Positions 1,496 to 63,974 of a stretch of DNA of 64,000 nt are shown here, piece after piece (the first letter of the stretch is position 1; every line of letters starts with the position of its first letter). The DNA comes from Okeania sp. SIO2C9 (GTDB lineage: Bacteria > Cyanobacteriota > Cyanobacteriia > Cyanobacteriales > Microcoleaceae). The notes under the pieces were generated by a model that made no database searches, had not been told where the DNA came from, and saw only the letters and a program-made list of their open reading frames with translations. The stretch is taken from contig NZ_JAAHGO010000027.1 in assembly GCF_010672455.1 (NCBI RefSeq), forward strand, positions 1 through 64,000, written 5' to 3'. Both the position numbers and the translations under genes were made by a program.

Positions 1496-1842
1496 AATAT
1501 AGTTTCTGTTTAGATGGGGTGGGTTCATCTCAATTTAATGTTGAGCAATTAATTTAACGCCGAACCTGCCCCTACTATTACAATATTCAATATTGTTGTC
1601 TGATTAGATTGTCGAACATTTTTCCTCCTAATAATTATGACTCTGAATATCAACAATTTAATAAATCAACTTATTCATCTTTTGATTTTTGGTTTAATAC
1701 TCTGCCGTCTACACGGTGTTTACAAACTTGTTGGGGTTTGACTCCCCGTCCACTTTTTCCTTCTTCCTTCTTCCTCCCCTCCTTTCAAAGGCAAGGGGGG
1801 ATGCCTTCTTCCTTCTTCCTTCTTCCCTCTTCCTTCTTCAAT
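1496..1842. repeat. recJ 5' region: half array copy, R7 unit and STRR
   Basis: About 1590-1636 resembles the 3' half of the upstream array unit. About 1691-1750 is an inverted copy of the dispersed unit R7 (a run of the type GGGTTTAATACCCC...CCGTCTACACGGTGTT...GGGGTTTGAGTCCCC). It is followed by TTCTTCC heptads that end at the recJ start codon. No Shine-Dalgarno motif is visible in this leader. Confidence 0.75.
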
Positions 1843-4038
1843 ATGCAAAATAATTTCTCCCTTCCACCAAAACAGCAAAACCTACCTAACCAAAGATGGC
1901 TAATATATCCAGAACAACCAGAAATAACTAAAGGACTAGCCAAAACTCTAGAAATATCACCCCTAATTGCCCAGACATTAATTAACCGGGATATTTCTAC
2001 TATAGAGCAAGCACAAGCATTTTTGGACCCTGAGTCAATAAAACTACCTCTACCAATACAAGAATTTCCTGACTTAGATATTAGTCTCAACTTATTACAA
2101 GCTACAATTTCTCAACAACAAAAAATTGCTATTTGTGGTGACTATGACGCAGATGGCATGACCAGCACTGCTTTATTGTTGCGCGCTCTCAAACATCTAG
2201 GGGCAAAAGTTGACTATGCTATTCCTAGTCGAATGCAGGAAGGTTATGGCATCAATCAACGTATTGTTGAGGAGTTTCATCAGGAAGGAGTAAGTCTCAT
2301 CCTGACTGTAGATAATGGTATTGCTGCTTATGAACCTATTGCTAGAGCAAGGGAATTAGGTGTAAATGTCATTATCACTGACCACCACGACATTCCACCG
2401 CAACTACCACCAGCTCACGCTATCCTCAATCCCAAACTTATTTCGGAAACTTCTCCTTATCGCGGTGTGGCAGGAGTGGGGGTTGCTTACATTTTGGCAG
2501 TATCTCTTGCGCAACGTTTGGGAAAACACCAAGGTTTAATTAAGCCACTTTTGGAATTATTCACCTTGGGTACTATTGCTGACTTGGCACCTTTAACTGG
2601 AGTAAACCGTCGCCTGGTGAAACGGGGGTTACAATATTTGCCTCACTCTCAGTTAGCAGGAGTGCAAGCATTAATTCAGGTATCTGGTGTTAAAGCGAGG
2701 GAAGAAGGAAGAGGGAAGAAGGAAGAAGGAAGAGGGAAGAGGGAAGAGGGAACTTATCAAGAAGGAAGAGGGAAGAAGGAAGAGGGAAGAGAGAAGAGGG
2801 AAGAGGGAACTCAAACGCCAATCAATTTTCAACACCCTATAGATGGCGGGGTATTAAACACAAAATCAAAAGATAATCAAAAATCTCTTAAACCTGATGA
2901 TATTGGTTTTCGCCTTGGTCCCCGCATCAATGCAGTGGGACGTATTGCTGACCCACAAATTGTGATTGAACTTTTGACGACTGATGATATGGGAATAGCT
3001 TTGGAAAGGGCGATGCAATGTGAAGAAATTAATCAGCAACGACAACTGTTATGTGAGGAAATTGAACAAGAGGCGATCGCTTGGTGCGAGTCAAGTCAGA
3101 TAAATTTACAGGAGGAAAGGGTTTTAGTGGTGGTGCAACCGGGATGGCATCATGGTGTTATTGGTATTGTTGCTTCTCGGTTGGTGGAGCGTTATGGGGT
3201 GCCTGTTTTTATTGGCACTTATGAGGAGGAGGGGGAAGAAATAATTCGTGGTTCTGCTCGTGGCATTCCTGAGTTTCATGTTTTTGAGGCGTTACAATTT
3301 TGCGATGAGCTATTAGGAAAGTATGGTGGTCATAGAGCGGCTGGTGGTTTTTCTTTTTCGGCAGAAAATTTGGATAAGTTTCGTTCTTGTCTGAGTGAGT
3401 TTGCTCATCAATGTTTAGAAATTCAGCATCTAAAACCGTTAATTAGTATTGATGCGGAGGCAGAAATTAAGGAATTAAATTTTGACCTTTATCGTCAAAT
3501 AGATTTACTTCATCCCTGCGGAATTGAAAATAAAGACCCTGTGTTTTGGAGTCGGAATGTCAAAATTTCTGAACAAAGAATTGTGGGTAAGGGGCATATT
3601 AAATTAACTTTAATTGAGGGGGAAATAATTCAGGCGATCGCTTGGCGTTGGGGCGATTATTTTCCTTTACCTTCGGTGGTAGATATTGCTTATAAAATGC
3701 GGGAAAATACTTGGAATGGTCAGAGTAATATTGAGTTGGAATTATTAGGAGTACGTTTGCCAATGGAAGTTTCTAGGAATTCACAAACTTCACCTCAAAA
3801 TTTTCCTCAAAAAGTAGAATTTTATTATAATAATCGTCCTTATACTTGCAGTCTTTATCAAATGGGAGATGTGAAGGAGTTAAGAATTAGAAATTCCCGT
3901 GGAGAAGTATTAGCAATTCAACAGGGACAAAAAATAGGTTTGTTAGGTAAAACTCGTAATAATGCCAAGCAAGTAAATGTTACGGATGCTCGTTTTTTTA
4001 ATTTAGTTAAAGCAGCTATGAGTGCTTTAAAGTTATAA
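1843..4038 (+). CDS. recJ: Single-stranded-DNA-specific exonuclease RecJ
   Basis: RecJ degrades single-stranded DNA 5' to 3' in recombination and mismatch repair. The DHH-family motifs are present: GDYDADGMTST, TVDNGI and TDHHDIP in the N-terminal half, then GFRLGPRINAVGR and the DHHA1 motif GGHRAAGGFSF, with an OB-like C-terminus. I start at the ATG at 1843 (MQNNFSLPPK; 731 residues). An in-frame TTG at 1609 would add 78 residues translated from repeat DNA. Residues ~286-343 (REEGRGKKEEG... to NTKSKDNQK) are a translated heptad STRR plus an R7 unit, inserted between conserved blocks. A GGAAGAA STRR begins right after the stop codon. Confidence 0.95.
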   Translation: MQNNFSLPPKQQNLPNQRWLIYPEQPEITKGLAKTLEISPLIAQTLINRDISTIEQAQAFLDPESIKLPLPIQEFPDLDISLNLLQATISQQQKIAICGDYDADGMTSTALLLRALKHLGAKVDYAIPSRMQEGYGINQRIVEEFHQEGVSLILTVDNGIAAYEPIARARELGVNVIITDHHDIPPQLPPAHAILNPKLISETSPYRGVAGVGVAYILAVSLAQRLGKHQGLIKPLLELFTLGTIADLAPLTGVNRRLVKRGLQYLPHSQLAGVQALIQVSGVKAREEGRGKKEEGRGKREEGTYQEGRGKKEEGREKREEGTQTPINFQHPIDGGVLNTKSKDNQKSLKPDDIGFRLGPRINAVGRIADPQIVIELLTTDDMGIALERAMQCEEINQQRQLLCEEIEQEAIAWCESSQINLQEERVLVVVQPGWHHGVIGIVASRLVERYGVPVFIGTYEEEGEEIIRGSARGIPEFHVFEALQFCDELLGKYGGHRAAGGFSFSAENLDKFRSCLSEFAHQCLEIQHLKPLISIDAEAEIKELNFDLYRQIDLLHPCGIENKDPVFWSRNVKISEQRIVGKGHIKLTLIEGEIIQAIAWRWGDYFPLPSVVDIAYKMRENTWNGQSNIELELLGVRLPMEVSRNSQTSPQNFPQKVEFYYNNRPYTCSLYQMGDVKELRIRNSRGEVLAIQQGQKIGLLGKTRNNAKQVNVTDARFFNLVKAAMSALKL
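2697..2870 (+). repeat. In-frame STRR plus R7 unit inside recJ
   Basis: GGAAGAA/GGAAGAG heptads run from about 2697 to 2808. They are followed by an R7 unit (ACTCAAACGCCAATCAATTT... GGCGGGGTATTAAACAC) to about 2864. The same STRR-R7 pairing is intergenic elsewhere, e.g. after tmk. Translation gives a seven-residue period (EEGRGKK, EEGRGKR), because three heptads equal seven codons. Confidence 0.9.
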
Positions 4039-7731: not shown

Positions 7732-7812
7732 TAAGTTTTCCTAATAGCTACCTATAGCTAGCTTAAGATAAATATAAAATTTTCACTGCAAATAATTGAA
7801 ATAAATTTAGTT

Positions 7813-8757
7813 ATGTCTGAAAATTCAACAACACCAATTGAACTCCTGACTGTTGGGAATATTGTTAGTGCTGGTATGAGAATTTATCGAGACCATTTCC
7901 AGCCTTATTTTGGTGTAGCTATTCGAGCAACTTTATGGTCTTTTTTGCCATTTTTTGCTTTAATTCCCATACCTTTAATTTTGATTTATAGTCAAGCCAA
8001 TACTTCAAGTTTTTTATTATTAATTCCTGTATGGTTATTATTGTTTATTTATTGTTCGGCAAAGTCAATTGTTAATAATGCCATAATTGCTAGGTTAGTA
8101 TTCGGAGAGTTAGCTAATCAACCAGAAACTGTTCGTGAAGCTAGCCGTATTTTAAAACCTAAAATGTGGACTTTTTTCCTAGCATTTTTTCTATTGTCTT
8201 TAATTGGAATTGGAATTTGGCTGATTCTTTCTATTTTTATGGGAATTTTGGGTGGTATTATTGCTGGAATGGCAAATGCTGGTCAGCAAAATGTGGGAAC
8301 TATAGTTGTTTTAGCTTTAATTGGAATTGTTATTTTTATTATTGCCTTAGTTTTTATAATTCGATTATTAATTCGTTTTTTTGTTTTCGATCTGCCTTTA
8401 GCTGTGGAAGAAAATATCACAGCAACTAAAACTTTAGGACGTAGTTGGGAATTAACAAAAGGATATGTATGGCGAATTTTTGTGGTATTGTTCATCGCAA
8501 CTTTAGTGACAATACCAATTGGGATAATTGTACAAATTATTGCTGGAATACTCGAAAATATTCTGAAAGCAACTATTCCTGCTAACCCAACAGATGCAAG
8601 CTTTCAATTACTATTATTTATCATGGGATATAGTATTGGATTATTAAGTAATGTCTTCTTATTACCATTTTGGCAAGCTATAAAAGCTGTAGTTTATTAT
8701 GACCTCCGAACTCGTCGAGAAGGTATGGGTTTACAGTTAAGAAAACAAGATATTTAA
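7813..8757 (+). CDS. Polytopic membrane protein, GPDPase-membrane-like family, copy 1
   Basis: A 314-residue protein with about six hydrophobic segments. It resembles the glycerophosphoryl diester phosphodiesterase membrane-domain family, without the catalytic phosphodiesterase domain. Conserved landmarks shared by all copies are VGNIVSAGMRIYRDHF near the N-terminus, RLVFGELANQPETVREA, LPLAVEENITATKTLGRSWE and the C-terminus YYDLRTRREGMGLQLRKQDI. This copy is intact. It heads a run of five paralogues followed by an RDD gene. A role in membrane assembly or transport is only inferred from the SpoIIM/RDD neighbourhood. Confidence 0.7.
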   Translation: MSENSTTPIELLTVGNIVSAGMRIYRDHFQPYFGVAIRATLWSFLPFFALIPIPLILIYSQANTSSFLLLIPVWLLLFIYCSAKSIVNNAIIARLVFGELANQPETVREASRILKPKMWTFFLAFFLLSLIGIGIWLILSIFMGILGGIIAGMANAGQQNVGTIVVLALIGIVIFIIALVFIIRLLIRFFVFDLPLAVEENITATKTLGRSWELTKGYVWRIFVVLFIATLVTIPIGIIVQIIAGILENILKATIPANPTDASFQLLLFIMGYSIGLLSNVFLLPFWQAIKAVVYYDLRTRREGMGLQLRKQDI

Positions 8758-8824
8758 TTTTGTTGTAATAGGGTTATTCCAGTTATCAGTTATCAGTTAT
8801 CAGTTATCAGTTGCAAATTTAGCC

Positions 8825-9770
8825 ATGTATCAAAGTCCAATAACAGTAACTAAACTTCTCAGCGTGGGGAATATTGTTAGTGCAAGTATCCGAATTTATC
8901 GAGATAATTTTAAGTCTTATTTTGGTGTAGCTATTCGATCAACTTTATGGTTTTTTTGCCACTTCTATCTTTATTTCCCATACCTTTAATTTTGATTTAT
9001 AGTCAACAAGCCAATACTTCAAGCTTTTTATTATTGATTCCTGTATGGTTATTATTATTTGGTTATTGTTCGGCAAAGTCAGTTGTTAATGATGCCATAA
9101 TTGCGAGATTAGTATTTGGAGAGTTAGCTAATCAACCAGAAACTGTACTTGAAACTAGGCGTATTTTAAAACCTAAAATGTGGACTTTTTTCCTAGAATT
9201 TTTTCTATTGTCTTTAATTGTTATTGTAATTTTGCTGATTCTTTCTATTGTTATTGGAATTTTGGCTGGTATTATTGCTGAAATTACAAATGCTGGTCAG
9301 CAAAATATGGGAACTAGAGCAATTTTAGTTTTAATTGGAATTGTTATTTTTATTATTACCTTAATTTTTATAGTTCGATTATTGACTCGTTTTTTTATTT
9401 TCGATCTGCCTTTAGCTGTGGAAGAAAACATCACAGCAGCTCAAACTTTAGGCCGTAGTTGGGAATTAACAAAAGGATATATAGGACTAATTTTTGTCGT
9501 ATCGTTTATCGCAACTTTAGTGACATTACCAATTCTGATAATGGTACAAGTTATTGCTAGAATACTCGAAAATATTTTGACAGCAACTATTCCTGCTAAT
9601 CCAACAGATCCAAGGTTTCAATTACTATTATTTCTCATGGGATATAGCATTGGATTATTAAGTAATGTTTTTTATTACCATTCTGGCAAGCCATAAAAGC
9701 TGTAGTTTATTATGACCTCCGAACTCGTCGAGAAGGTATGGGTCTACAGTTAAGAAAACAAGATATTTAA
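8825..9770 (+). pseudogene. GPDPase-membrane-like paralogue, copy 2, two frameshifts
   Basis: The ATG at 8825 starts MYQSPITVTKLLSVGNIV. The frame is lost at about 8950, where TATGGTTTTTTTGCCA has one base fewer than the TATGGTCTTTTTTGCCA type of the other copies. The middle 249 codons remain open. A second one-base loss at about 9667 (AATGTTTTTTATT versus AATGTCTTTTTATT) moves the C-terminal YYDLRTRREG block out of frame. The ancestral stop is at 9768-9770. Both lesions fall in T runs. Confidence 0.85.
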
Positions 9771-9837
9771 TTTTGTTGTAATAGGGTTATTCCAGTTATC
9801 AGTTATCAGTTATCAGTTATCAGTTGAAAATTTAGCC

Positions 9838-10788
9838 ATGTCTGAAAATCCAATAACACTAATTAAACTTTTAAGCGTGGGGAATGTTGTTAGTGCGAGT
9901 ATCCGAATTTATCGAGATAATTTTAAGTCTTATTTGGGTGTAGCTATTCGAGCAACTTTATGGTCTTTTTGGCCTTTTTTAGCTTTAATTCCCATACCTT
10001 TAATTTTGATTTATAGTCAAGGCGATATCTCAATGTCAATTTTTTTATTATTAATTCCTGTCTGGTTATTATTGTTTATTTATTGTTCGGCAAAGTCAAT
10101 TATTAATAATGCCATAATTGCTAGATTAGTATTCGGAGAGTTAGCTAATCAACCAGAAACTGTTCGTGAAGCTAGGCGTATTTTCAAACCTAAAATGTGG
10201 ACTTTTTTCCTAGCATTTTTTCTATTTTTTTTAATTGGAATTGGAATTTTGCTGATTCTTTCTGTGGTTATTGAAATTTTGGCTGGTATTATTGCTGGAA
10301 TTGCAAATGCTAGTCAGCAAAATGTGGGGACTATAGTTGTTTTAGCTTTAATTGGAATTGTTATTTTTATTATTGCCTTAGTTTTTATAGTTCGATTATT
10401 AATTCGTTTTTTTGTTTTCGATATGCCTTTAGCTGTGGAAGAAAATATCACAGCGACTCAAACTTTAGGACGTAGCTGGGAATTAACAAAAGGATATGTA
10501 GGGCGAATTTTTGTGGTATTGTTCATCGCAACTTTAGTGACATTACCAATTCTGATAATGGTACAAGTTATTGCTAGAATACTCGAAAATATTTTGACAG
10601 CAACTATTCCTGCTAATCCAACAGATCCAAGGTTTCAATTACTATTATTTCTCATGGGATATAGCATTGGATTATTAAGTAATGTCTTTTTATTACCATT
10701 CTGGCAAGCCATAAAAGCTGTAGTTTATTATGACCTCCGAACTCGTCGAGAAGGTATGAGTCTACAGTTAAGAAAACAAGATATTTAA
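9838..10788 (+). CDS. Polytopic membrane protein, GPDPase-membrane-like family, copy 3
   Basis: A 316-residue intact paralogue, very close to copies 1 and 2 over the whole length. The same landmarks are present (VGNVVSASIRIYRDNF, RLVFGELANQPETVREA, MPLAVEENITATQTLGRSWE, LRTRREGMSLQLRKQDI). It is preceded by CAGTTAT heptads that are also present before copy 2, so the repeat was part of the duplicated unit. The C-terminal third is almost identical to the copy 2 pseudogene, which suggests recent duplication or gene conversion. Confidence 0.7.
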   Translation: MSENPITLIKLLSVGNVVSASIRIYRDNFKSYLGVAIRATLWSFWPFLALIPIPLILIYSQGDISMSIFLLLIPVWLLLFIYCSAKSIINNAIIARLVFGELANQPETVREARRIFKPKMWTFFLAFFLFFLIGIGILLILSVVIEILAGIIAGIANASQQNVGTIVVLALIGIVIFIIALVFIVRLLIRFFVFDMPLAVEENITATQTLGRSWELTKGYVGRIFVVLFIATLVTLPILIMVQVIARILENILTATIPANPTDPRFQLLLFLMGYSIGLLSNVFLLPFWQAIKAVVYYDLRTRREGMSLQLRKQDI

Positions 10789-10815
10789 TTTTGTTGTAAT
10801 AGGATAAATTTAGTT

Positions 10816-10988
10816 ATGTCTGAAAATCCAATAACACTAATTAAACTTCTAAAAGTAAACTTCAGTATTTCAATTCCAATACTTCAGCGCTTGGTACTGT
10901 TAACTGATAACTGATAACTGATAGCTGAAAAGACCTCCGAATTCGTCGAGAAGGTATGGGTCTACAGTTAAGAAAACAAGATATTTAA
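10816..10988 (+). pseudogene. GPDPase-membrane-like paralogue, copy 4, internal deletion remnant
   Basis: The first ~12 codons (MSENPITLIKLL) and the last ~20 codons (RREGMGLQLRKQDI, then TAA) of the family are present. They are separated only by ~85 bp that includes GATAACT heptads. The whole membrane core is missing. It carries the same 5' and 3' flanks as its neighbours, so it is a deleted member of the tandem array. Confidence 0.85.
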
Positions 10989-11015
10989 TTTTGTTGTAAT
11001 AGGATAAATTTAGTT

Positions 11016-12125
11016 ATGTCTGAAAATCCAATAACACTAATTAAACTTTTAAGCGTGGGGAATGTTGTTAGTGCTAGTATCCGAATTTATCGAGATAATT
11101 TTAAGTCTTATTTTGGTGTAGCTATTAGAGCAACTTTATGGTATTTTTTGCCATTTTTAGCTTTAATTCCAATACCTATAGTTTTGATTTATGGTCAACA
11201 AGGCAATAGCTCCAGTTTTTTATTATTAATTCCTGTTTGGTTATTATTGTTTGCTTTTTGTACGGCAAAATCAATTGTTAATAGTGCAATAATTGGTAGG
11301 TTAGTATTCCGACTATTAGCAAATCAACCAGAAACTGTTCGTAAAGTTAGGCGAAATTTAGCACCGAAAATACGGTCTTTTTTCTGGGCATTTTTTCTAT
11401 TATTTTTAATTGTAATTGGCATTTATATAGGTTTTCCTGTAGCGGTAGTAATTATTAGTTTTATTATTCTTATTCCTGTAAGTGTTATTGCTGCTATAGC
11501 GAATATTGAGCTAAATATTCAGCCAGATATGATGCAAAATAATATAGTGGTTATCATAATCTCTGGATTGATAGGTATAACATTTCTAGTGATTTGGTAC
11601 TACTTAATAATTCGACTATTGACTCGTTTTTTTATTCTTGATATGCCTTTAGCAGTTGAAGAAAATATGACAGCAACTAAAAGTTTAGGACGAAGTTGGG
11701 AATTAACAAAAGGGTATGTAGGGCGAATTTTTGTGATACTGCTAGTCGCAATTTTAGTTGCTTTACCTATTGGCACGGTATTGTATATTATTTCAGAAAT
11801 ATTTTCAAAATTTTTAATCCTAAAAACACCATCTTTTGATCTTTCACTTAATAATTTACTTAGTACATTTATAGAAGGAATAATATTTGTATGGCCGTTT
11901 AGTATGACAATTGCATTACCGTTTGTCATTATAGGAATTATGTTAGAAAATGGACTAAGCAACCCAAACTATTTACTAGCATTTTTAGTACAAAGTTATG
12001 CTATTTTTTCCTTAAGCAATATACTTTTATTACCATTCTGGCAAACAATTAAAGCTGTGATTTATTATGACCTCCGGACTCGTAGAGAAGGTATGGATTT
12101 ACAGTTAAGAAAACAAGATATTTAA
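11016..12125 (+). CDS. Polytopic membrane protein, GPDPase-membrane-like family, copy 5 (long form)
   Basis: A 369-residue, more diverged member. The N-terminus up to SVGNVVSASIRIYRDNFKS is nearly the same as copy 3, but the central and C-terminal membrane segments differ. An insertion of about 45 residues (around SLNNLLSTFIEGIIFVWPF) precedes the common ending LRTRREGMDLQLRKQDI. The identical first 30 residues next to a diverged core suggest conversion of the 5' end. It probably forms one transcript with the RDD gene 49 bp downstream. Confidence 0.7.
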   Translation: MSENPITLIKLLSVGNVVSASIRIYRDNFKSYFGVAIRATLWYFLPFLALIPIPIVLIYGQQGNSSSFLLLIPVWLLLFAFCTAKSIVNSAIIGRLVFRLLANQPETVRKVRRNLAPKIRSFFWAFFLLFLIVIGIYIGFPVAVVIISFIILIPVSVIAAIANIELNIQPDMMQNNIVVIIISGLIGITFLVIWYYLIIRLLTRFFILDMPLAVEENMTATKSLGRSWELTKGYVGRIFVILLVAILVALPIGTVLYIISEIFSKFLILKTPSFDLSLNNLLSTFIEGIIFVWPFSMTIALPFVIIGIMLENGLSNPNYLLAFLVQSYAIFSLSNILLLPFWQTIKAVIYYDLRTRREGMDLQLRKQDI

Positions 12126-12174
12126 TTTTATTAGCAGCAAAGAAGGTAAGCAGAAAATCTCATCAATATTAACA

Positions 12175-24636: not shown

Positions 24637-25646
24637 ATTTAATTTTAAAAATTGTATTAAACATATTCATTCTGATTCCTGACTCCTTTTCATAGCATTC
24701 AGGAAAAACTTTATTCTCCTCTTCCTCCTTGTTCCCTCCTGACTCCTTCTTTTAGGTTGTAGGTAGGGGATGAAAATCTCATGTTCCGTATTCTTCTAAC
24801 TTTTAACTTTTAACTTTTAACTTTTGACTTTTGAATTAGGTTATAGGTAGGGGATAAAAATCTCATGTTCCGTATTCTTCTAACTTTTAACTTTTAACTT
24901 TTAACTTTTGACTTTTGAATTAGGTTATAGGTAGGGGATAAAAATCTCATCTCCCGTATTCTTCTAACTTTTGACTTTTAACTTTTAACTTTTGACTTTT
25001 GAATTAGGTTATAGGTAAGGGATAAAAATCTCATCTCCCGTATTCTTCTAACTTTTGACTTTTAACTTTTAACTTTTGACTTTTGAATTAGGTTATAGGT
25101 AAGGGATAAAAATCTCATCTCCCGTATTCTTCTAACTTTTGACTTTTAACTTTTAACTTTTGACTTTTGAATTAGGTTATAGGTAAGGGATAAAAATCTC
25201 ATCTCCCGTATTCTTCTAACTTTTGACTTTTAACTTTTAACTTTTGACTTTTGAATTAGGTTATAGGTAAGGGATAAAAATCTCATCTCCCGTATTCTTC
25301 TAACTTTTGACTTTTAACTTTTAACTTTTGAATTAGGTTGATAGGTAGGGGATGAAAATCTCATCTCCCGTATTCTTCTAACTTTTGACTTTTAACTTTT
25401 AACTTTTGAATTAGGTTGATAGGTAGGGGATGAAAACCTCATCTCCCGTATTCTTCTAACTTTTGACTTTTAACTTTTAACTTTTGAATTAGGTTGATAG
25501 GTAGGGGATGAAAACCTCATCTCCCGTATTCTTCTAACTTTTGACTTTTAACTTTTAACTTTTAACTTTTGAATTAGGTTGATAGGTAGGGGATGAAAAC
25601 CTCATCTCCCGTATTCTTCTAACTTTTGACTTTTAACTTTTAACTT
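24637..25646. repeat. Tandem array of ~84/78-bp units, 11 copies, ending at the holB start
   Basis: CGTATTCTTCTAAC recurs at about 24786, 24871, 24957, 25039, 25123, 25207, 25291, 25369, 25447, 25525 and 25610. Each unit is ~46 bp of unique sequence (ATTAGGTTATAGGTAGGGGATAAAAATCTCATCTCC) plus CTTTTAA/CTTTTGA heptads. The period is 84 bp in the left part and 78 bp in the right. The last copy contributes the TTTTGAATT that overlaps the TTG start of holB. Confidence 0.95.
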
Positions 25647-26606
25647 TTGAATTTATTTACCTCAATTATCGGACAAAACCAAGCCATAGAATTATTAACT
25701 CAAGCAGTTACTCGCCAACGTATTGCCCCTGCCTATTTATTTGTAGGCACTCCAGGAATAGGAAGGGGTTTAACTGCCCAATGTTTTATTGAACTCCTAT
25801 TCTCCAATAACCACTCCCCCGCTAACCCATCCCTAAAAAATCGCATTCATAAAAGGAACCATCCAGACCTATTATGGGTAGAACCCACCTATCTACATCA
25901 AGGAAAACTACTCTCAGCAAAAGAAGCAACAGAAGCAGGAGTCAAACGCAAGTCACCACCTCAAATTCGTCTCGAACAGGTACGGGAAATTAGTGAATTT
26001 CTTGGCCGCCCCCCCCTAGAAACTGCAAGATCAGTAGTAGTCTTGCAACAAGCTGAAACAATGAGAGAAAGTGCCGCAAATGGTTTGTTGAAAACTTTGG
26101 AAGAACCAGGTAAACGGGCAACTTTAATCTTAATTGCTCCGGGAGTTGATTCATTATTGCCCACCTTGGTGTCCCGATGCCAGCGCATTCCTTTTTATCG
26201 CTTGGCCAACGAGAATATGAAGCTCGTATTGGAAAAAGCTGGCCATGAAGAAATTTTGAGGCATAAAGAAGTGATGATGATGGCTCAAGGTAGTCCAGGA
26301 GAGGCGATCGCTGCTTGGCAACAACTACAAGAAATTCCTGCGGATATTTTGGAAAGGGTAACTCAGGGTATTAAGACTATTCGTCAAGCACTAGAAGTAG
26401 GGCGAGATATTAGTAAAAATTTGGATATGGAGGCGCAGTTATGGTTGATAGATTATCTACAGCATAGTTATTGGGCAAAACCACAACAGCACCTTGACAA
26501 AGTGGAATGTCTCAAACATCTGGAGACAGCGAGAAAATATTTACTCTCCTATGTCCAACCTAGATTAGTTTGGGAATGTACTTTCATGGCGATGTGTTCT
26601 TTTTGA
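25647..26606 (+). CDS. holB: DNA polymerase III delta' subunit
   Basis: 319 residues, the clamp-loader delta' subunit. The AAA+ fold starts at SIIGQNQAIELLTQAV. The P-loop-like GTPGIGRG has Arg where ATPases have Lys, consistent with delta' not hydrolysing ATP. The sensor/SRC motif is present in TLVSRCQRIPF, and LLKTLEEPGKRATLILIA is family-typical. The only plausible start is TTG at 25647 (MNLFTSIIGQ), and it lies inside the last unit of the upstream tandem array. A GGAAGAA STRR starts right after the stop codon. Confidence 0.92.
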   Translation: MNLFTSIIGQNQAIELLTQAVTRQRIAPAYLFVGTPGIGRGLTAQCFIELLFSNNHSPANPSLKNRIHKRNHPDLLWVEPTYLHQGKLLSAKEATEAGVKRKSPPQIRLEQVREISEFLGRPPLETARSVVVLQQAETMRESAANGLLKTLEEPGKRATLILIAPGVDSLLPTLVSRCQRIPFYRLANENMKLVLEKAGHEEILRHKEVMMMAQGSPGEAIAAWQQLQEIPADILERVTQGIKTIRQALEVGRDISKNLDMEAQLWLIDYLQHSYWAKPQQHLDKVECLKHLETARKYLLSYVQPRLVWECTFMAMCSF

Positions 26607-28196: not shown

Positions 28197-31100
28197 CTAT
28201 TTAAGATAACGCCACGCCTTGATTAAATTTCCTTGCATCAAAGCAGCAACTCCATTTAAAGCTCTAATTTCTGGCTGAGTGGGGTCCAGCTCCAAAGCAG
28301 ACTTCAAAGCTATTTCTGCCGCCCCTGGATTTAAGTTATATAGATAAACAAAAGCCAAATAAGCATAGGCAAAGGGGTTTTGGGAATCTAATTCTGTCAC
28401 CCTAGTCAAAGCAGCGATCGCTCCATCCGCATCCTGTTGTAAAACTCTGGCCAAACTCAACCCATAAAGCCACTCTAAATTATTGGGGTCTTGCTGCAAA
28501 CGATATGCCAAAGTTTTTTCTGCTTGTTTGGTATAATCTTGGACTGGATCGTACTGGTTAACTCGCCCCACTTCCTCAAATACGGTTTCTAAACCTTTTA
28601 TCCCCAGAGGCAACTTTTGCCCCCACATCCGCAACTGTGTCACCAAATCTAATTCTGGTGCTGGTAATATTTCCGCCTGGGGGTCTACTTCGACACGCAC
28701 GGGGGGTTGTATGGGAATAGGATAAGTTTCTCCAGTTTTCCGGTTAAGGTAAGTTGCTTCTAATATGTAATTTCCCGATGAAATATTGGCAGGAGGTAAC
28801 ATTCCTATTCTTTCAATAATTTCAAACCCGACTTCAGACTTTTTTGTTGGAGACAGACCAGGGTATAAACTCCCCATTCCAATAGCGCGATCGTGAATGA
28901 AACTTGTAATAGATTTTTCTGAGATATTGTCAGAAACTAATTGCTGAAATTGTGGTTGATTAATACAGCAGTTCTTTAATCTATGAAGTACAGTTTTATA
29001 TCCCCCCTTTGCCCCCCTTTGTAAGGGTGGAACGTTCAAAGTCCCCCTTTCTAAGGGGGATTTAGGGGGATTATAAATGTACTTCGTAACTGTGGGAATT
29101 GCTATATTTTCTCGGCGATAAGTTAACAACACTAAACCGGACTGTAATTCTTGCCAAGAACCAGACCATTTATAGGTAATAGGTATTGGTACTCCCGGTC
29201 TAATTTTTGGCGATAAAATAACATAGTCTAATTTGACTTTTTCTTGTGGTTTATTCAGAGGATGAACCTCTACAGGTAAAAACTGATTATGATAAAGATT
29301 TAAGTTGCTATTATCTGGCAACTGCCAAGTTTTTTGTAATTGAAAATTAGGGTTTTGTTCGATGATATTAACAATAGCAGATTGAGCTTTTTTAATTCTT
29401 TTTACCGAACCTTGGTCATTAGTTTTCGTGACAAACCAAGAGAGCGATCGCACATCTTGAGGTACTTGTTTTAAATTAGTTCCTACTTGTCTACCGTAAA
29501 CCTGTAAATTTTGCAAAGCACCGTAATAATTTAAGTTATGTTGATTAATTTCTGGAGTGGAAGGTAAAACTCCTAAAGTTGACCGTAAATAGGGGTCAGT
29601 TTTGATAATTTCAGCAATTACTTTTTGGTGAGGCCATTCTTTACCTAAATGAGCATAATAAACACCGCCAGGACTCAACCAGGCAGAAATTTTTCTGAAG
29701 AAAATTCCACCTACAGGCCAGATATTTAACAGCATTAAAATAATGGCTAAACCAATAGTAAACCAGCGAATTTGTTTTCCTACTTTTATCGGAAATTGCA
29801 TTAAACCAAAGGCTAATAAAATTGATAAAACTGGCAATAATGGCAAAGTGTAGCGAAAATCTTTGTTGATATTGAGAGAGCAAATGAGATAACCGCCAAT
29901 TAAAAATATAGCTAACCATCGGCAAGAGCGGAGGTAATTTGATGATAATTTATCCTGTTTTTTGAACGACCGAATTAGGTAAAAAAATAATCCGCCAATG
30001 GGAATAATTAATAGGGGTAAAGAAATATGATAAGGCAGCAGTTTCCAATAATAAAGCCAAGCATCCAAACTCAATAAATTGGGGTCGCCTTCAGCAATAG
30101 CAGAATCTACAGTTGCCCGTTTACCAGCAGTTAACATTAATAGCCAATTTTTTCTCGCCCAAGGGTAAAAAGTTGCTACAGATAAACACAGAGAAAAAAT
30201 TAGTTGAATTAACTTTTGCCACTGCCGTTTTCTGAGAATATTTACTCCTATCGAAAGTAACGGAATGAATAGAAAAAATATGGTAGTTTGTTTAACTAAA
30301 ATTGCAGCACCAAAAGCCAAACCAAAAGCAATCGCCCAAAGCCAATCTTTTAGATTTAAAGATATAAGTAAATTACAGCAAATTGCAGGTATATGAGGTA
30401 CAAATATAAATCGTAAAGTTTTTGTAGTGCGGGCATCTTGCCCGCGACTGGTGTACCTCACTAATATGAAATACGCTGTATTTGCTAGAGTAGATATTCT
30501 TGACAGTAATTTATCGAAGATAGAGGTTTTTTCAGAATTAAAATTAAAATTTTCTTGGTCAATTTTTCCCGTTTTATTTTCCCTGTTCCCTGTTCCCTGT
30601 TCCCTGTTCCCTATAGGAGATATTTTTGACAGTAATTTATCGAAAATAGAGGTTTTTTCAGAATTAAAATTAAAATTTTCTTGGTCAATTTTTCCCGCTT
30701 TATTTTCCCTGTTCCCTATAGGAGATATTTTTGACAGTAATTTATCGAAAATAGAGGTTTTTTCAGAATTAAAATTAAAATTTTCTTGGTCAATTTTTCC
30801 CGCTTTATTTTCCCTGTTCTCTATAGGAGATATTTTTGACAGTAATTTATCGAAAATAGACGTTTTTTCAGAATTAACATTAAACTTTGTTTTGTCAACT
30901 TTCCCCATTCCCTGTTCCCTGTTCCCTGTTGCCTGTTGCCTATTCCCTATAGCAGATATTTTTGACAGCAATTTATCGAAAATAGACGTTTTTTCAGAAT
31001 TAAAATTAAAATTTTCTTGGTCAATTTTTCCCGTTTTATTTTCCCTATTGCCTGTTGCCTGTTGCCTATTAAAATTAAAATTTTCTTTGTCAATTTTTCC

Positions 31101-31658
31101 CGTTTTACTTTCCCTGTTGCCTGTTGCCTGTTGCCTGTTGCCTATTGAAAAATACCAAAACGTTAAACAACAGAAACTTAAAGTCACCATTGCCGTGAGA
31201 GGATAGTCGAGTAAATACTGTAAACGATATCTATATAAACCTGGAAATAATATACATAAAACTGCTGCCCAAAAACCAACTTTTTGATTAAATAATTTTT
31301 TACCCAAACAATAAACTGAACTAAGTAAAATAGCACTAAAAAATAGATGTACTAAAGTTGCTTGGTCAGCACCCCTACCAAAAATAACTTGAAATGGAAC
31401 AGTAAGAATATAAGTCAACGGCGGAACCTTCGGCGAAAGCTCCCAAAAATGCTGCCACCATTCCCCAGAAAACAGATGCACATTTTGAAAAGCACGCCAG
31501 TAAGTCAGGGAACCCGTGAGATAGTCAGCTTGATCCCAAGCAGGAACAGACTTATCAAAAGCAAACCAGAGGCGATCGCTCACCGCTGCGAATAACCATA
31601 AGATAGTTAAGGTAAGGATATGATTAGTTTTGTGTTGTTTTTTTTCTTGGGCAATCAT
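28197..31658 (-). CDS. Family 39-type membrane glycosyltransferase with TPR tail, enlarged by in-frame repeats
   Basis: A polytopic glycosyltransferase of the GT-C/family 39 type, which transfers sugars from lipid-linked donors at the membrane. The first luminal loop shows the acidic pair in AWDQADYLTGSLTYW, followed by many hydrophobic segments (e.g. WLWAIAFGLAFGAAILV, FTIGLAIILMLLNIW). A soluble domain follows and then a C-terminal TPR region (YGLSLARVLQQ, YAYLAFVYLYNLNPGAAEIAL). At 1153 residues it is unusually long. Residues ~171-429 are a repeat array plus an R1 MITE-like copy (translated SIGNRQQATGN... KTGKIDQENFNF), and another MITE-like insertion adds ~47 residues near NPPKSPLERGTLNVPP. 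GATAACT heptads precede the ATG. Confidence 0.8.
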   Translation of the reverse strand: MIAQEKKQHKTNHILTLTILWLFAAVSDRLWFAFDKSVPAWDQADYLTGSLTYWRAFQNVHLFSGEWWQHFWELSPKVPPLTYILTVPFQVIFGRGADQATLVHLFFSAILLSSVYCLGKKLFNQKVGFWAAVLCILFPGLYRYRLQYLLDYPLTAMVTLSFCCLTFWYFSIGNRQQATGNRESKTGKIDKENFNFNRQQATGNRENKTGKIDQENFNFNSEKTSIFDKLLSKISAIGNRQQATGNREQGMGKVDKTKFNVNSEKTSIFDKLLSKISPIENRENKAGKIDQENFNFNSEKTSIFDKLLSKISPIGNRENKAGKIDQENFNFNSEKTSIFDKLLSKISPIGNREQGTGNRENKTGKIDQENFNFNSEKTSIFDKLLSRISTLANTAYFILVRYTSRGQDARTTKTLRFIFVPHIPAICCNLLISLNLKDWLWAIAFGLAFGAAILVKQTTIFFLFIPLLSIGVNILRKRQWQKLIQLIFSLCLSVATFYPWARKNWLLMLTAGKRATVDSAIAEGDPNLLSLDAWLYYWKLLPYHISLPLLIIPIGGLFFYLIRSFKKQDKLSSNYLRSCRWLAIFLIGGYLICSLNINKDFRYTLPLLPVLSILLAFGLMQFPIKVGKQIRWFTIGLAIILMLLNIWPVGGIFFRKISAWLSPGGVYYAHLGKEWPHQKVIAEIIKTDPYLRSTLGVLPSTPEINQHNLNYYGALQNLQVYGRQVGTNLKQVPQDVRSLSWFVTKTNDQGSVKRIKKAQSAIVNIIEQNPNFQLQKTWQLPDNSNLNLYHNQFLPVEVHPLNKPQEKVKLDYVILSPKIRPGVPIPITYKWSGSWQELQSGLVLLTYRRENIAIPTVTKYIYNPPKSPLERGTLNVPPLQRGAKGGYKTVLHRLKNCCINQPQFQQLVSDNISEKSITSFIHDRAIGMGSLYPGLSPTKKSEVGFEIIERIGMLPPANISSGNYILEATYLNRKTGETYPIPIQPPVRVEVDPQAEILPAPELDLVTQLRMWGQKLPLGIKGLETVFEEVGRVNQYDPVQDYTKQAEKTLAYRLQQDPNNLEWLYGLSLARVLQQDADGAIAALTRVTELDSQNPFAYAYLAFVYLYNLNPGAAEIALKSALELDPTQPEIRALNGVAALMQGNLIKAWRYLK
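28964..29106. mobile_element. MITE-like insertion in the glycosyltransferase (C-terminal domain)
   Basis: Ends TACAGCAGTTC...GAAGTACA and TGTACTTCG...GGAATTGCTATA are imperfect inverted repeats. The centre is the CCCCTTTCTAAGGGGGATTTAGGGGG dispersed block, which translates as NPPKSPLERG. Assuming a TA duplication it adds 141 bp, exactly 47 codons. Confidence 0.75.
30374..30480. mobile_element. R1 MITE-like copy inside the glycosyltransferase
   Basis: TACAGCAAATTGCAGGTATATGAGGTAC at the left end and GTACCTCACTAATATGAAATACGCTGTA at the right form imperfect inverted repeats around the hairpin GCGGGCATCTTGCCCGC. Intergenic copies are at 4085-4198, 6548-6625, 20251-20305 (half) and 53190-53287. 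With a TA duplication it adds 105 bp, i.e. 35 codons. Confidence 0.85.
30488..31148. repeat. In-frame composite repeat array inside the glycosyltransferase
   Basis: Six imperfect units of about 105-130 bp. Each combines a conserved segment (GACAGTAATTTATCGAAAATAG, TTTTTTCAGAATTAAAATTAAA, TCAATTTTTCCCG) with a variable number of CCCTGTT or GCCTGTT heptads. On the coding strand this gives ENFNFNSEKTSIFDKLLSKIS and GNREQGTGNR repeats. The array is open throughout. Confidence 0.9.
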
Positions 31659-34227: not shown

Positions 34228-34403
34228 TATCATGTCCGGACTAATTATGATTTGATACCTGGCCAGATCTCTTGTTTTGATCGGAGGTCAAGGTATGATA
34301 GGAAATGAAGTTTAAGTTAAGTCTGGAAAAAACAGGGTTGTATTTGTAGAAAAACGGGATTGAATACAATATACCATACGATTAATTTATAGGAAAATAA
34401 CTG

Positions 34404-34931
34404 ATGACAACTCAAGAATTAATTGATTTAAGAACTTGCATTCTCCAAGGGCGAACCGGGGATGCTTTGGTAATTATTGACGAATTGGATGCCATGAGTA
34501 AAAAAGACATCATCAGAAAAATCAAATCCTATTTAATTGTGATGTTAACTCACTTAATTAAAAATCAGGTGGAAAGACGTTTAACTAATTCCTGGGCAGT
34601 ATTCATCCACAACGCAACTCTTGAAATTCAAGACTTAAATTTGCAGCCAAATAATACCTCTTATTTCATCAAAGAAAATGAATTGGATGAGATGCTAGAA
34701 GTGGCGATAGAGTTTGCTATTGGCGATGCCAGCGTGGAGGTTAAAAATGGCGCTTACAGTCCATTTAAACTGGAGGAAATGGTAGATAAAAATTCTGTAA
34801 TCGCAACTGCTAAGAATTTTTTAGCTTTAACTTACGCTGATTCTGCTAAAGATTTGTTAGCTGTTATTGACGATAATTTGACTTTATTACCCGGTGGGGA
34901 AGATTGGAAATTTGGCAGGAGAAATAAGTAG
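34404..34931 (+). CDS. DUF29-like protein, tandem copy 1
   Basis: A 175-residue, mostly helical protein resembling the DUF29 family, which is abundant in cyanobacteria and without known function. Typical elements are ALVIIDELDAMSKKDIIRK, SYLIVMLTHLIKNQVERRLTNSW and ELDEMLEVAIEFAIGDAS. The ending LPGGEDWKFGRRNK is shared by all four copies. It is the most diverged of the four (LQGRTGDAL instead of MEGRNRDAL near the N-terminus). An AGGA-type site precedes the start. Confidence 0.65.
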   Translation: MTTQELIDLRTCILQGRTGDALVIIDELDAMSKKDIIRKIKSYLIVMLTHLIKNQVERRLTNSWAVFIHNATLEIQDLNLQPNNTSYFIKENELDEMLEVAIEFAIGDASVEVKNGAYSPFKLEEMVDKNSVIATAKNFLALTYADSAKDLLAVIDDNLTLLPGGEDWKFGRRNK

Positions 34932-34967
34932 TATTTTTAATTGTTAATTTCAGGAGAAAAATAACTA

Positions 34968-35495
34968 ATGACAACTCAAGAATTAATCGACTTAAGGACT
35001 TGCATTATGGAAGGTATAAATCACGATGCTTTAGCAATTATTGACGAACTGGATGCCATGAGTAAAAAAGACACCCTTTTCAAGATAGATTCTTATTTAA
35101 CTGTGGTGTTAATTAACTTAATAAAAAATCAGGTGGAAAAACGATTAACTAATTCCTGGGCTGCATCAATTCGGACTTCGATTAGAAAAATTAAAAGCTT
35201 AAATTTAAAGGAAAATAAAATTTCTTATTACATCAAAGAAGATGAATGGGGAAAGGCGATCGCGCAAGTTATAGAAGCAGCTATTCGAGATGCAAGCGTA
35301 GAAGCATTAGATGGCAATTGCAGTCCGTTTCAACTCAAAGAAATGGTGGAAACAACTCAAGTTACCGAAAATGCTTTGAGTTTATTGTCCTTAATTTACG
35401 CACATCAACCGGAGATTATAGCCGCAATTATTGACGATAATTTGGCATTATTACCCGGTGGGGAAGATTGGAAGTTTGGTAGGAGAAATAAATAG
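34968..35495 (+). CDS. DUF29-like protein, tandem copy 2
   Basis: 175 residues, 36 bp downstream of copy 1 with a CAGGAGAAAAA ribosome site. The N-terminal two thirds matches copies 3 and 4 closely (LTVVLINLIKNQVEKRLTNSW, IRKIKSLNLKENKISYYIKE). The last third (KAIAQVIEAAIRDASVEALDGN, TTQVTENALSLLSLIYAHQPE) is clearly different. This mosaic pattern suggests recombination among paralogues. The common ending LPGGEDWKFGRRNK is retained. Confidence 0.65.
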   Translation: MTTQELIDLRTCIMEGINHDALAIIDELDAMSKKDTLFKIDSYLTVVLINLIKNQVEKRLTNSWAASIRTSIRKIKSLNLKENKISYYIKEDEWGKAIAQVIEAAIRDASVEALDGNCSPFQLKEMVETTQVTENALSLLSLIYAHQPEIIAAIIDDNLALLPGGEDWKFGRRNK

Positions 35496-35627
35496 CATTG
35501 TTAACTAAGCAATCAGCAGTCAGCAATCAGCAATCAGCATAATTTTTTGGGAAATTGAGGAGAAAGTTCCAATCTATAAAAGCCTGGGATTTTAACTCAG
35601 AGCTGCTAAAAGCTGATAGCTAGTTAA

Positions 35628-36182
35628 TTGTTGATTTCAGGAGGGAAAAAACTAATGACAACTCAAGAATTAATCGACTTAAGGACTTGTATTATGGAAG
35701 GTAGAAATCGCGATGCCTTAGCAATTATTGACGAACTGGATGCCATGAGTAAAAAAGATACGCTTTTCAAGATAGATTCTTATTTAACTGTGGTGTTAAT
35801 TCACTTAATAAAAAATCAGGTGGAAGGGCGATTAACTAATTCCTGGGCAGCATCAATTCGGGCTTCAATTAGAAAAATTAAAGGCTTAAATTTAAAGGAA
35901 AATAAAATTTCTTATTACATTAAAGAAGAAGAATGGGATGAGATATTAGAAGAGGCGATTGAGTTTGCTATTCGTGATGCAAGTACAGAGGTTAAAAATG
36001 GCGCTTATAGTTCCTTTCAATTGAAGGAAATGGTGGATAAAACTTCTGTGTTCACAACTGCTAAGAGTTTTTTAGCCTTAACTTATAGTTATTCTTCTAA
36101 TGATTTGTTAGCTGTTATTGACGATAATTTAGCATTATTACCCGGTGGAGAAGATTGGAAGTTTGGTAGAAGAAATAAATAG
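35628..36182 (+). CDS. DUF29-like protein, tandem copy 3
   Basis: 175 residues if started at the ATG at 35655 (MTTQELIDLRTCIMEGRNRD), which has GGAGGG upstream. The in-frame codon at 35628 would add nine residues across that ribosome site and is unlikely. Very close to copy 4 through residue ~125. The 132-bp gap to copy 2 contains CAGCAATCAG repeats absent from the other gaps. Confidence 0.65.
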   Translation: MLISGGKKLMTTQELIDLRTCIMEGRNRDALAIIDELDAMSKKDTLFKIDSYLTVVLIHLIKNQVEGRLTNSWAASIRASIRKIKGLNLKENKISYYIKEEEWDEILEEAIEFAIRDASTEVKNGAYSSFQLKEMVDKTSVFTTAKSFLALTYSYSSNDLLAVIDDNLALLPGGEDWKFGRRNK

Positions 36183-36218
36183 CATTTTTAATTGTTAATT
36201 TTAGGAGGAAAATAACTA

Positions 36219-36746
36219 ATGACAACTCAAGAATTAATCGACTTAAGGACTTGCATTATGGAAGGTAGAGATCGCGATGCCTTAGCAATTATTGACGAAC
36301 TGGATGCCATGAGTAAAAAAGACACGCTTTTCAAGATAGATTCTTATTTGACTGTGGTGTTAATTCACTTAATAAAAAATCAGGTAGAAGGGCGATTAAC
36401 TAATTCCTGGGCAGCATCAATTCGGGCTTCAATTAGAAAAATTAAAAGCTTAAATTTAAAGGAAAATAAAACTTATTATTACATTAAAGAAGAAGAATGG
36501 GATGAGATATTAGAAGAGGCGATTGAGTTTGCTATTGACGATGCAAGTGCGGAGGTTGAAAATGGCGCTTACACTCCGTTTCAACTGAAGGAAATGGTGG
36601 ATAAAAATTCTATAATCACAACTGCTAAGAGTTTTTTAGCCTTAACTTACAGTTATTCTGCTAAAGATTTGTCAGTAGTTATTAACGATAATTTTGCATT
36701 GTTACCCGGTGGAGAAGATTGGAAATTTGGTAGGAAGAATAAGTAG
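36219..36746 (+). CDS. DUF29-like protein, tandem copy 4
   Basis: 175 residues, 36 bp after copy 3 with TTAGGAGGAAAATAACT upstream, the best ribosome site of the four. Same domain order as the others; the final part reads LSVVINDNFALLPGGEDWKFG and ends RKNK. The set is probably transcribed together. Function unknown. Confidence 0.65.
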   Translation: MTTQELIDLRTCIMEGRDRDALAIIDELDAMSKKDTLFKIDSYLTVVLIHLIKNQVEGRLTNSWAASIRASIRKIKSLNLKENKTYYYIKEEEWDEILEEAIEFAIDDASAEVENGAYTPFQLKEMVDKNSIITTAKSFLALTYSYSAKDLSVVINDNFALLPGGEDWKFGRKNK

Positions 36747-62234: not shown

Positions 62235-62831
62235 AGTAGAGGCGTTTCATCGAATGTCTCTACATTTTTATCAAACAATTGTGTAATATATTAAAGTTAA
62301 TGAACAAATAAAATGCTTATACCAATTCACTTTAAAAATGTCGAATTAGTGTATGATATTAATCTTAATTATTTAGGAGTCAACCCACCCCTAACCCCTC
62401 TCAGGAGGGGCATTCAGGAGTCAGGAGGGAAGAAAGAAGAAGAAAGAGTAGTAGAAGAAGAAAGTTGTTTGTTCGCGCTCTTATCCGGACATGATATCAT
62501 ACTTCAAATCACCAACGCCAATGTCACAAATAGTTGGTAACTGATAATGTTAAATAATAACCAGAAATTTCTGTATAATTGAACTTTTAAGCCATTCAAA
62601 TCTGACTTTTGACTTCTGACTTCCGTTAAACGGTATTAGTTCCCTATCCCCAGAATATCTCAGGAGGTAAAATAATGAAAGACTTTTCCGGACATGATAT
62701 CATATCTCAAATCACCAACGCCCAAAAATAAAATCAATTCTCACACATAAATTATCAATTATTTCTCCCTATTGCCTACTGCCTACTGCCTACTCCCTCT
62801 TTTCTGGAGATATCTAATTGTTAAATTGATA

Positions 62832-63974
62832 CTATCCACCGTCACCGCCGCCACCACCGTCGCCACCGCCACCACCGTCACCGCCGCCCCAACTGCCACC
62901 GTCGCCACCACCACCACCGTCACCGCCGCCACCACCGCAACCGTAACCACCGTAACCACCGTAACCATCCCAACCGCCACCACGGCCACCACGGCCACCA
63001 CGGCCACGACCACGGCCACGGCCACGGCCACGGCCACTGCTGCTACAACTACTAACAACAAATAAGGCGATGTATAAAAGCACTATAAACATTATTGGAT
63101 ACGAAGAGATTAGCTCTAATAGTCCTGAAAAAAGAGAACTAACTGCTTGAGTGAGGTGCAAAATAGCTGTTGAAACATCAAGAACATTATGGAAAAACAT
63201 CGCCATAACTTCTATTTCTTGTTGCGAAATAGAACTAACTGCTTGAATGCGCTGCCAATTAGGTGTTGAAACATCAAGAATATTATGGGGAAACTGCACC
63301 ATAACTTCTATTTCTTGTTGCGGTGGAATTGCTTTTTTAGCGACAAATTCAACAACAGTGGAATTTATTTTTCTAGGGTTAGTTGGTGTGCCAAAACTTT
63401 TAAAAGTTTGGATTTTTTCTGATAAAATTTCCGGTAGTCGGACTATGATTTTGGCATTTTGTATAGGAGCATTACGGTTGGCAAATATTGCTTTCCAATA
63501 AACCTTATCTCCATTTTCATTAATATGTAAACCACCTATTACGCGATATTTTAAGACAAAAGTATGGGCTTCAGGTGCATTGAGTTGATGTTGCCATTTA
63601 ATCCATATCTGGTTATTTTTTATTCCAGTTTGGCTAGGAATCTGTTCCTGATTTTCCCAAACTGTGACATCGGTAATCTTATCTACTTTGTCTAGTGGAA
63701 TATATCGATATCGTTGGTTTGTATGAGATTGCGTAAAGACATATTTCTGGGTTTCGCTTACCAGCATATCTCCATTTTTTTGAACATCTATTTCCACATT
63801 GATAAAATCCCAGTAAAAAGGAGAGGTTCCCTGAGCAATAGTTTGTAATGCTGGAGATAAACCAATCAATATAGCCACAAAAAATGTCAATATTTTTCGC
63901 AGTTTTATTCGGATTTTTATCCGGGAGTATGGTTTGATTAAACTTGGTAAATAGTTCATATTTTTCTTGTCCAC
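62832..63974 (-). CDS. DUF2207-domain membrane protein with Gly/Asp tail
   Basis: 380 residues; ATG at 63959 (MNYLPSLIKPYSRIK) is the better start, with an upstream GTG possible at 63974. A signal peptide (ILTFFVAILIGLSPALQTIAQG) precedes the DUF2207 region (YWDFINVEIDVQKNGDMLVSET, IPLDKVDKITDVTVWEN, APEAHTFVLKYRVIGGL). A second hydrophobic segment (PIMFIVLLYIALFVVSS) leads to a ~75-residue Gly/Arg then Gly/Asp tail (GRGRGRGGRGG, GGGGDGG). Around residue 220-285 a 32-residue block (QQEIEVMVQFPHNILDVST) is tandemly duplicated. Such proteins are of unknown function. Confidence 0.75.
   Translation of the reverse strand: MDKKNMNYLPSLIKPYSRIKIRIKLRKILTFFVAILIGLSPALQTIAQGTSPFYWDFINVEIDVQKNGDMLVSETQKYVFTQSHTNQRYRYIPLDKVDKITDVTVWENQEQIPSQTGIKNNQIWIKWQHQLNAPEAHTFVLKYRVIGGLHINENGDKVYWKAIFANRNAPIQNAKIIVRLPEILSEKIQTFKSFGTPTNPRKINSTVVEFVAKKAIPPQQEIEVMVQFPHNILDVSTPNWQRIQAVSSISQQEIEVMAMFFHNVLDVSTAILHLTQAVSSLFSGLLELISSYPIMFIVLLYIALFVVSSCSSSGRGRGRGRGRGRGGRGGRGGGWDGYGGYGGYGCGGGGGDGGGGGDGGSWGGGDGGGGGDGGGGGDGG

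Follow-up and report, generated by a model that had tools for sequence, protein, structure and literature searches.

Short TA-target mobile repeats as probable in-frame loop extensions of a predicted membrane glycosyltransferase in Okeania

How a single open frame for a membrane enzyme can come to hold several kinds of repeat, and whether the encoded protein tolerates the added residues or is selected to keep them, is the question raised by a gene of Okeania sp. SIO2C9 that lies within a 64,000-nucleotide stretch of contig NZ_JAAHGO010000027.1 (hereafter, the window). An earlier note on this DNA, made from the letters alone, had described an open frame of 1153 codons at 28197–31658; the frame is present and is read from the minus strand, which the earlier note had not given. 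It encodes a predicted PMT-type glycosyltransferase, a membrane enzyme that we take to be GT39-like. In a Pfam search with the window protein, PF02366 (PMT) scored 32.1 bits, above its curated cut-off of 22.7, and PF13414 (TPR_11) scored 27.5 bits against a cut-off of 26.8, while PMT_2, with 24.9 against 26.1, fell slightly under. The frame and its domains are placed as follows.

28197..31658, minus strand: PMT-type membrane glycosyltransferase with C-terminal TPRs, 1153 aa (open frame, PF02366 and PF13414 matches)
31128..31478, minus strand: PMT domain match, residues 61–177 (coordinates computed from residues)
28341..28529, minus strand: TPR region, residues about 1044–1106 (coordinates computed from residues)

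Matches to the glycosyltransferase were found in 57 of the 59 genomes searched, counting its own genome (10.9 Mb in 317 contigs); those in four of the 57 (G005, G050, G053 and G056) are weak, with E between 3.5e-7 and 7e-4. The nearest named relatives belong to Okeania (loci L001–L004, 95–96% identical in core DNA), followed by Trichodesmium. For the orthologue comparison 61 loci were reduced to 56 by dropping the duplicates L013, L014, L015, L019 and L021. Among five Okeania-group genes the dN/dS of the core is 0.15–0.53 in part A, 0.09–0.16 in part B and 0.04–0.19 in part C, and these low values indicate that the core is under purifying selection and the enzyme maintained. The orthologous loci L008, L011 and L024 are each split into two frames, as might be seen if the frame were decayed or misassembled and no working gene. 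We regard that reading as extremely improbable, since the frame runs uninterrupted through all five Okeania-group genes with its core under constraint, and since matches, the four weak ones included, recur in nearly all genomes searched. Structural comparison added little: an AlphaFold model of A1 (9 sequences) had a mean pLDDT of 35.8 and was too poor for use, and in a profile search of solved structures (17 sequences) every match fell in the C-terminal TPR part.

The alignments indicate that the extra sequence is restricted to two loops of the glycosyltransferase. Loop 1, taken from residue 165 to residue 441 of the window protein inclusive, was measurable in 53 of the 56 loci; it spans 277 residues in the window against 13–163 in the other 52, is 107–277 residues long in all five Okeania-group genes and L018, and does not exceed 40 residues in 35 of the 53. 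Loop 2 (residues 848–921), measurable in 33 of the 56 loci, is 10–31 residues long in 20 and 60–126 in 13, although the mapping overruns the loop in at least four of these 13 (L025, L026, L057 and L061); its length in the window is 74. The earlier estimate of about 300 repeat-derived residues proves right, with a loop 1 far longer than any other measured and a gain of 47 residues in loop 2. Loop 1 and the repeats in the frame are located as follows.

30354..31148, minus strand: loop 1, residues about 171–435, filled with repeats and lying between segments conserved in orthologues (orthologue loop lengths 13–277)
30374..30480, minus strand: R1, a MITE-like, TA-flanked element with ends TACAGC...GCTGTA and a net insert of 105 bp, or 35 codons (dispersed matches, filled/empty alignment with L004)
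30488..31148, minus strand: composite tandem array built of heptamer tracts and, between them, a unit like GKIDQENFNFNSEKTSIFDKLLSKIS (unit matches and spacings)
30575..30616, minus strand: heptamer (CCCTGTT-type) tract in the composite array
30899..30950, minus strand: heptamer tract in the composite array
31039..31071, minus strand: heptamer tract in the composite array
31108..31149, minus strand: heptamer tract in the composite array
28964..29106, minus strand: second element ('MITE2'), TA-flanked, with TACAGC...GCTATA ends and a net insert of 141 bp encoding IAIPTVTKYIYNPPKSPLERGTLNVPPLQRGAKGGYKTVLHRLKNCC (dispersed matches, empty sites in orthologues)

Both R1 and the second element had been described as dispersed repeats with a copy inside the frame, and both descriptions hold. 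R1 has at least 41 matches in its own genome (40 of 181 candidates scored) and the second element at least 38 (40 of 94 candidates scored), the window copy being counted in each case. The two resemble MITEs in their length (107 and 143 nt), many copies, TA duplication and lack of a transposase gene, and the R1 terminal inverted repeats (TACAGC.../...GCTGTA) are present in many copies. The earlier note had proposed an alignment with orthologues to find the empty sites, and single-TA empty sites emerged for both elements. At the R1 site (GCAAA-TA...TA-ATTTAC) L004 has a single TA and is thus empty, L001 lacks R1 and has TC in place of TA, L003 keeps 60 of the 107 nt, and L018 is filled. Between the window and L018, identity is 96% in R1 and 86% in the core; the two loci may share R1 by descent or may each have received it independently at one and the same TA. 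The second-element site (GAAAA-TA...TA-TTAATC) is empty with a single TA in L005, L016, L017, L018, L022 and L023, empty in sequence that has drifted in L002, and filled in L001, L003, L004 and L020. Because these orthologues have one TA where the window has TA-element-TA, the net gains are 105 bp for R1 and 141 bp for the second element, as had been claimed. Orthologues carrying the same segments without nucleotide similarity to the dispersed repeats, the outcome that the earlier note had named as refuting, were not found for either element.

It is very probable, on the strength of these comparisons, that short TA-target mobile repeats inserted in a working glycosyltransferase gene and that the survivors in its two loops are in-frame loop extensions. 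Repeats of this kind would enter the gene at TA targets, presumably with an IS630/Tc1-class transposase acting in trans; a filter of selection on reading frame and fold would then let loop insertions in the right phase and orientation survive, and an element that passed would become a loop extension in the open frame. Elements with TACAGC ends at TA targets are widespread in the own genome, where the end pattern has 45 matches and a reversed control has 0. The same genome holds 15 matches to IS630-class DDE_3 genes, one of which (C24:655534-655945) has ends, TACAGCGGTTTTCATATG..., that are similar to but not exactly those of R1, TACAGCGTATTTCATAT. Among the 15 DDE_3 matches we found similar ends only and no transposase gene with exactly these ends, and no IS630-type transposase was recognized by eye in eight stretches around similar ends; one frame at L131 resembles a TnpB fragment.

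The same two loops have received other dispersed families in relatives. The loop 1 insert of L002, which sits at the window's R1 position, belongs to another family with at least 44 matches in G002 (40 candidates scored). In loop 2, the insert of L016 and L017 represents a further family with at least 12 matches in G011 and at least 45 in G034 (40 candidates scored per genome), in which matching away from those two loci starts only at about query base 30, and the insert of L018 is likewise from another dispersed family, with at least 46 matches in G021 (40 candidates scored). L020 carries two copies of the second element, with an internal duplication. Heptamer arrays follow a similar distribution: 23 of the 25 arrays in the 56 orthologous loci overlap the loops, which make up 11,526 of 147,531 bp, a count in which unmappable loops were entered as outside and in which arrays are not independent, as relatives share some of them and long loops give more room. 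The arrays in loops, found at L001–L004, L012, L016–L018, L020, L027, L028 and L055, differ in sequence and include AGGGAAC, AGGAAGA, AGGGAGT and CTCAGGA types.

The composite array of loop 1 departs from what had been claimed for it. The earlier note held that all three repeat types also occur between genes, and this statement was not confirmed: the two MITE-like elements are dispersed, whereas all six own-genome matches of the 120-nt array unit (40 of 77 candidates scored) lie at C190:30489-31118 inside the glycosyltransferase gene. Since no match of the unit turned up outside the gene, the preferred reading is that the array arose in place, one loop segment having multiplied in tandem along with heptamers, and is not a dispersed repeat. 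Heptamer arrays as such, known in cyanobacteria as STRR, are common, with 55 in the window by script count, and they occur elsewhere on their own. Spacings in the array are mainly 126 and 105 nt, a difference of 21 or three heptamers, and one spacing of 69 nt is no multiple of 21; among relatives, the unit occurs once in L018, twice in L004 and three times in L001. The array would have grown where heptamer tracts slipped or recombined unequally with one another, with selection keeping the frame. As for the non-heptamer part of the unit, its similarity to native loops was reached by 4 of 500 shuffles for L005 and by 57–152 of 500 for five other loops, so that an origin from a native loop is at best weakly suggested.

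Repeats of several other kinds are present in the window. A recJ-like gene (ORF 1609–4038, plus strand) with DHH, DHHA1 and RecJ_OB domains has heptamer arrays in frame (EEGRGKKEEGRGKREEG...) at 2697–2810, between DHH and DHHA1, so that in-frame repeats are found in a further gene of the window; just upstream of this gene, units of about 139 nt stand in tandem at 1–1535. At 24668–25702, upstream of a gene resembling that for DNA polymerase III delta, units of 84 and 78 nt that have heptamer cores stand in tandem, and GC-rich short-period repeats (9- and 15-nt steps) occur at 62828–63031, at the end of a gene for a DUF2207 protein. Gene-sized tandem duplications, two sets of four, are found at 7803–12154 and 34373–36746.

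Whether the inserts do anything for the protein was assessed from the codon positions of their variable sites. Positions 1, 2 and 3 account for 40, 33 and 123 variable sites in the core (four genes), for 5, 2 and 4 in the second element (four genes) and for 0, 2 and 2 in R1 (window against L018). When the inserts are pooled (5/4/6) and set against the core, no third-position bias is detected in them (Fisher p=0.10, a weak test), which favors toleration over selection. The suggestion that the protein tolerates or selects for in-frame insertions in loops is thus upheld in its first half: insertion into tolerant loops is supported by the empty sites, the restriction of variation to loops and the purifying selection on the core, while the position test, not significant at p=0.10, gives the second half no clear support and is compatible with some purifying selection on the inserts. 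The insert peptides would accordingly be passengers that are mostly tolerated. A functional role, with longer loops kept because they change how the enzyme binds partners, chooses its substrate or is exposed at the surface, strikes us as quite unlikely. It would agree with the long loop 1 of the five Okeania-group genes and L018, with the sharing of the second element by four of those five genes and L020, and with some third-position excess in the array unit (130, 90 and 238 pairwise differences among 13 units), yet close relatives differ in the sequence, family and copy number of their inserts. L002 has no second element, L001 and L004 have no R1, and that of L003 is truncated; most measurable loci, moreover, do with a short loop 1, and the MITE inserts show no bias at third positions.

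What counts against the account of insertion into tolerant loops is that capture in frame is rare: most second-element peptide matches lie in short frames and one of 29 R1 copies lies in a long one. The window copy of R1 is stop-free in two of six combinations of orientation and phase and the second element in one of six; across 14 near-full-length R1 copies, 6 of 84 combinations would keep the frame open with a net length divisible by three. Among the 29 R1 copies read with full flanks, a reading that leaves out two loci cut by contig ends (L074 and L103), the window copy alone is in a long frame. A search of the 59 genomes with the second-element peptide gave at least 86 matches at E up to 1e-5, G016 being a lower bound with 137 of 274 candidates scored; among the matches listed, 75 of 86 are in frames of at most 123 aa and 11, at eight loci, in frames of at least 684 aa. 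These eight loci are the glycosyltransferase in five genomes, C252-like genes in two (by BLAST to L155) and a fragment in one. Querying with the peptide of the window itself favors the glycosyltransferase, and neither STAND gene of the own genome comes within E 1e-5. In a separate stretch of the own genome (G000:C113:71803-72664) the second-element core occurs in tandem with a period of about 150 bp, outside long frames.

The STAND genes are two nSTAND1-WD40 proteins of the own genome (C224 and C252) that also hold the second element in frame. In the C224 protein the PPKSP insert lies at residue 364, before the best nSTAND1 stretch (499–806, profile from position 97), and a second nSTAND1 stretch was also counted. 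L155 (G000:C252), L152 (G003:C335) and L153 (G016:C190) form a set of related proteins of nSTAND1-WD40 type in which the NPPKSPLERGT peptide occupies one shared region, Pfam domains having been read for L155 among the three; in L153 the peptide has been amplified in frame to at least eight PPKSP repeats, with ENPPKSPLERETLKN repeated. L151 (G016:C79) is a contig-end fragment, hydrophobic by eye and without a Pfam match, that has two in-frame copies of the peptide. The recurrence of one peptide in at least three different proteins, and its further tandem growth in frame, as in L153, could point to an element adapted to coding insertion in the manner of the Rickettsia palindromic elements (RPE), its stop-free frame being kept up as a means of making genic insertions tolerable. 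Such adaptation is unlikely, given that one frame in six is open, that the great majority of peptide matches sit in short frames and that R1 copies have no open frame in common; we prefer occasional capture in tolerant loops.

The filled loop 2 of L020 may have a further history. Over the two 120-nt stretches that immediately follow loop 2, L020 is 92 and 98% identical to the window, falling to 78–86% further on; against L018, of its own genus, it is 86 and 82% identical in those two stretches and 92, 99, 98 and 87% further on. Because L020 is Okeania-like after loop 2 and closer to L018 beyond, the simplest reading is that a tract next to the filled loop, which it probably takes in as well, crossed genera by recombination. 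The stretch would have moved by homologous recombination, as one identity profile suggests.

The kind of event is known, in that it would work as RPE do. According to sections of a review (PMC10969869), which cites Ogata et al. 2000 and 2002, RPE are dispersed elements of about 150 bp found in frame in unrelated protein genes, with Rickettsia as the extreme among cases of in-frame fusion of mobile elements to genes, a route of protein evolution considered conceivable elsewhere. The likeness is claimed for the mode of working: both are dispersed palindromic elements in frame in protein genes, here open frames. The Okeania elements differ in their TA-type ends and the single-TA empty sites visible in orthologues, in the convergence of several families on the same loops with tandem amplification after, and in that most copies found lie outside long frames. 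By description only, they also recall cyanobacterial MITEs named or cited in that review (Nezha; Anabaena MITEb and MITEe, with ORFs), which are likewise short and non-autonomous, some with open frames. Cyanobacterial heptanucleotide repeats, as part of another paper describes them (PMC4692102), are likewise dispersed 7-nt tandem arrays, but over-represented in non-coding DNA, whereas those here stand in an open frame, in two loops, with main spacings that are multiples of 21. PARCEL elements, again compared by description from part of the source (PMC2996958), are also palindromic coding repeats of membrane-targeted proteins, both tandem and mobile, but form a 25-residue amphipathic motif. In literature that excludes most subscription journals, we found no paper that treats the window gene or describes repeats captured in frame in Okeania or Trichodesmium. 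What seems new is that several families converge on two loops, with empty sites in orthologues and later growth in frame.

Trichodesmium genomes are repeat-rich, according to part of one report (PMC9950141). We tentatively raise the possibility, which we do not favor, that the mobile repeats of the Okeania/Trichodesmium group are a standing supply from which ordinary proteins draw new loop sequence. In this view the second element, with its fixed frame NPPKSPLERGT..., may have entered loops of the glycosyltransferase and of STAND NTPases in several species, to be amplified in frame and spread across genera by recombination of host genes. One conserved enzyme offers sites that are filled, empty, truncated or differently filled among relatives, so that large-genome, free-living bacteria may serve to date and to test insertion, toleration, growth and loss.
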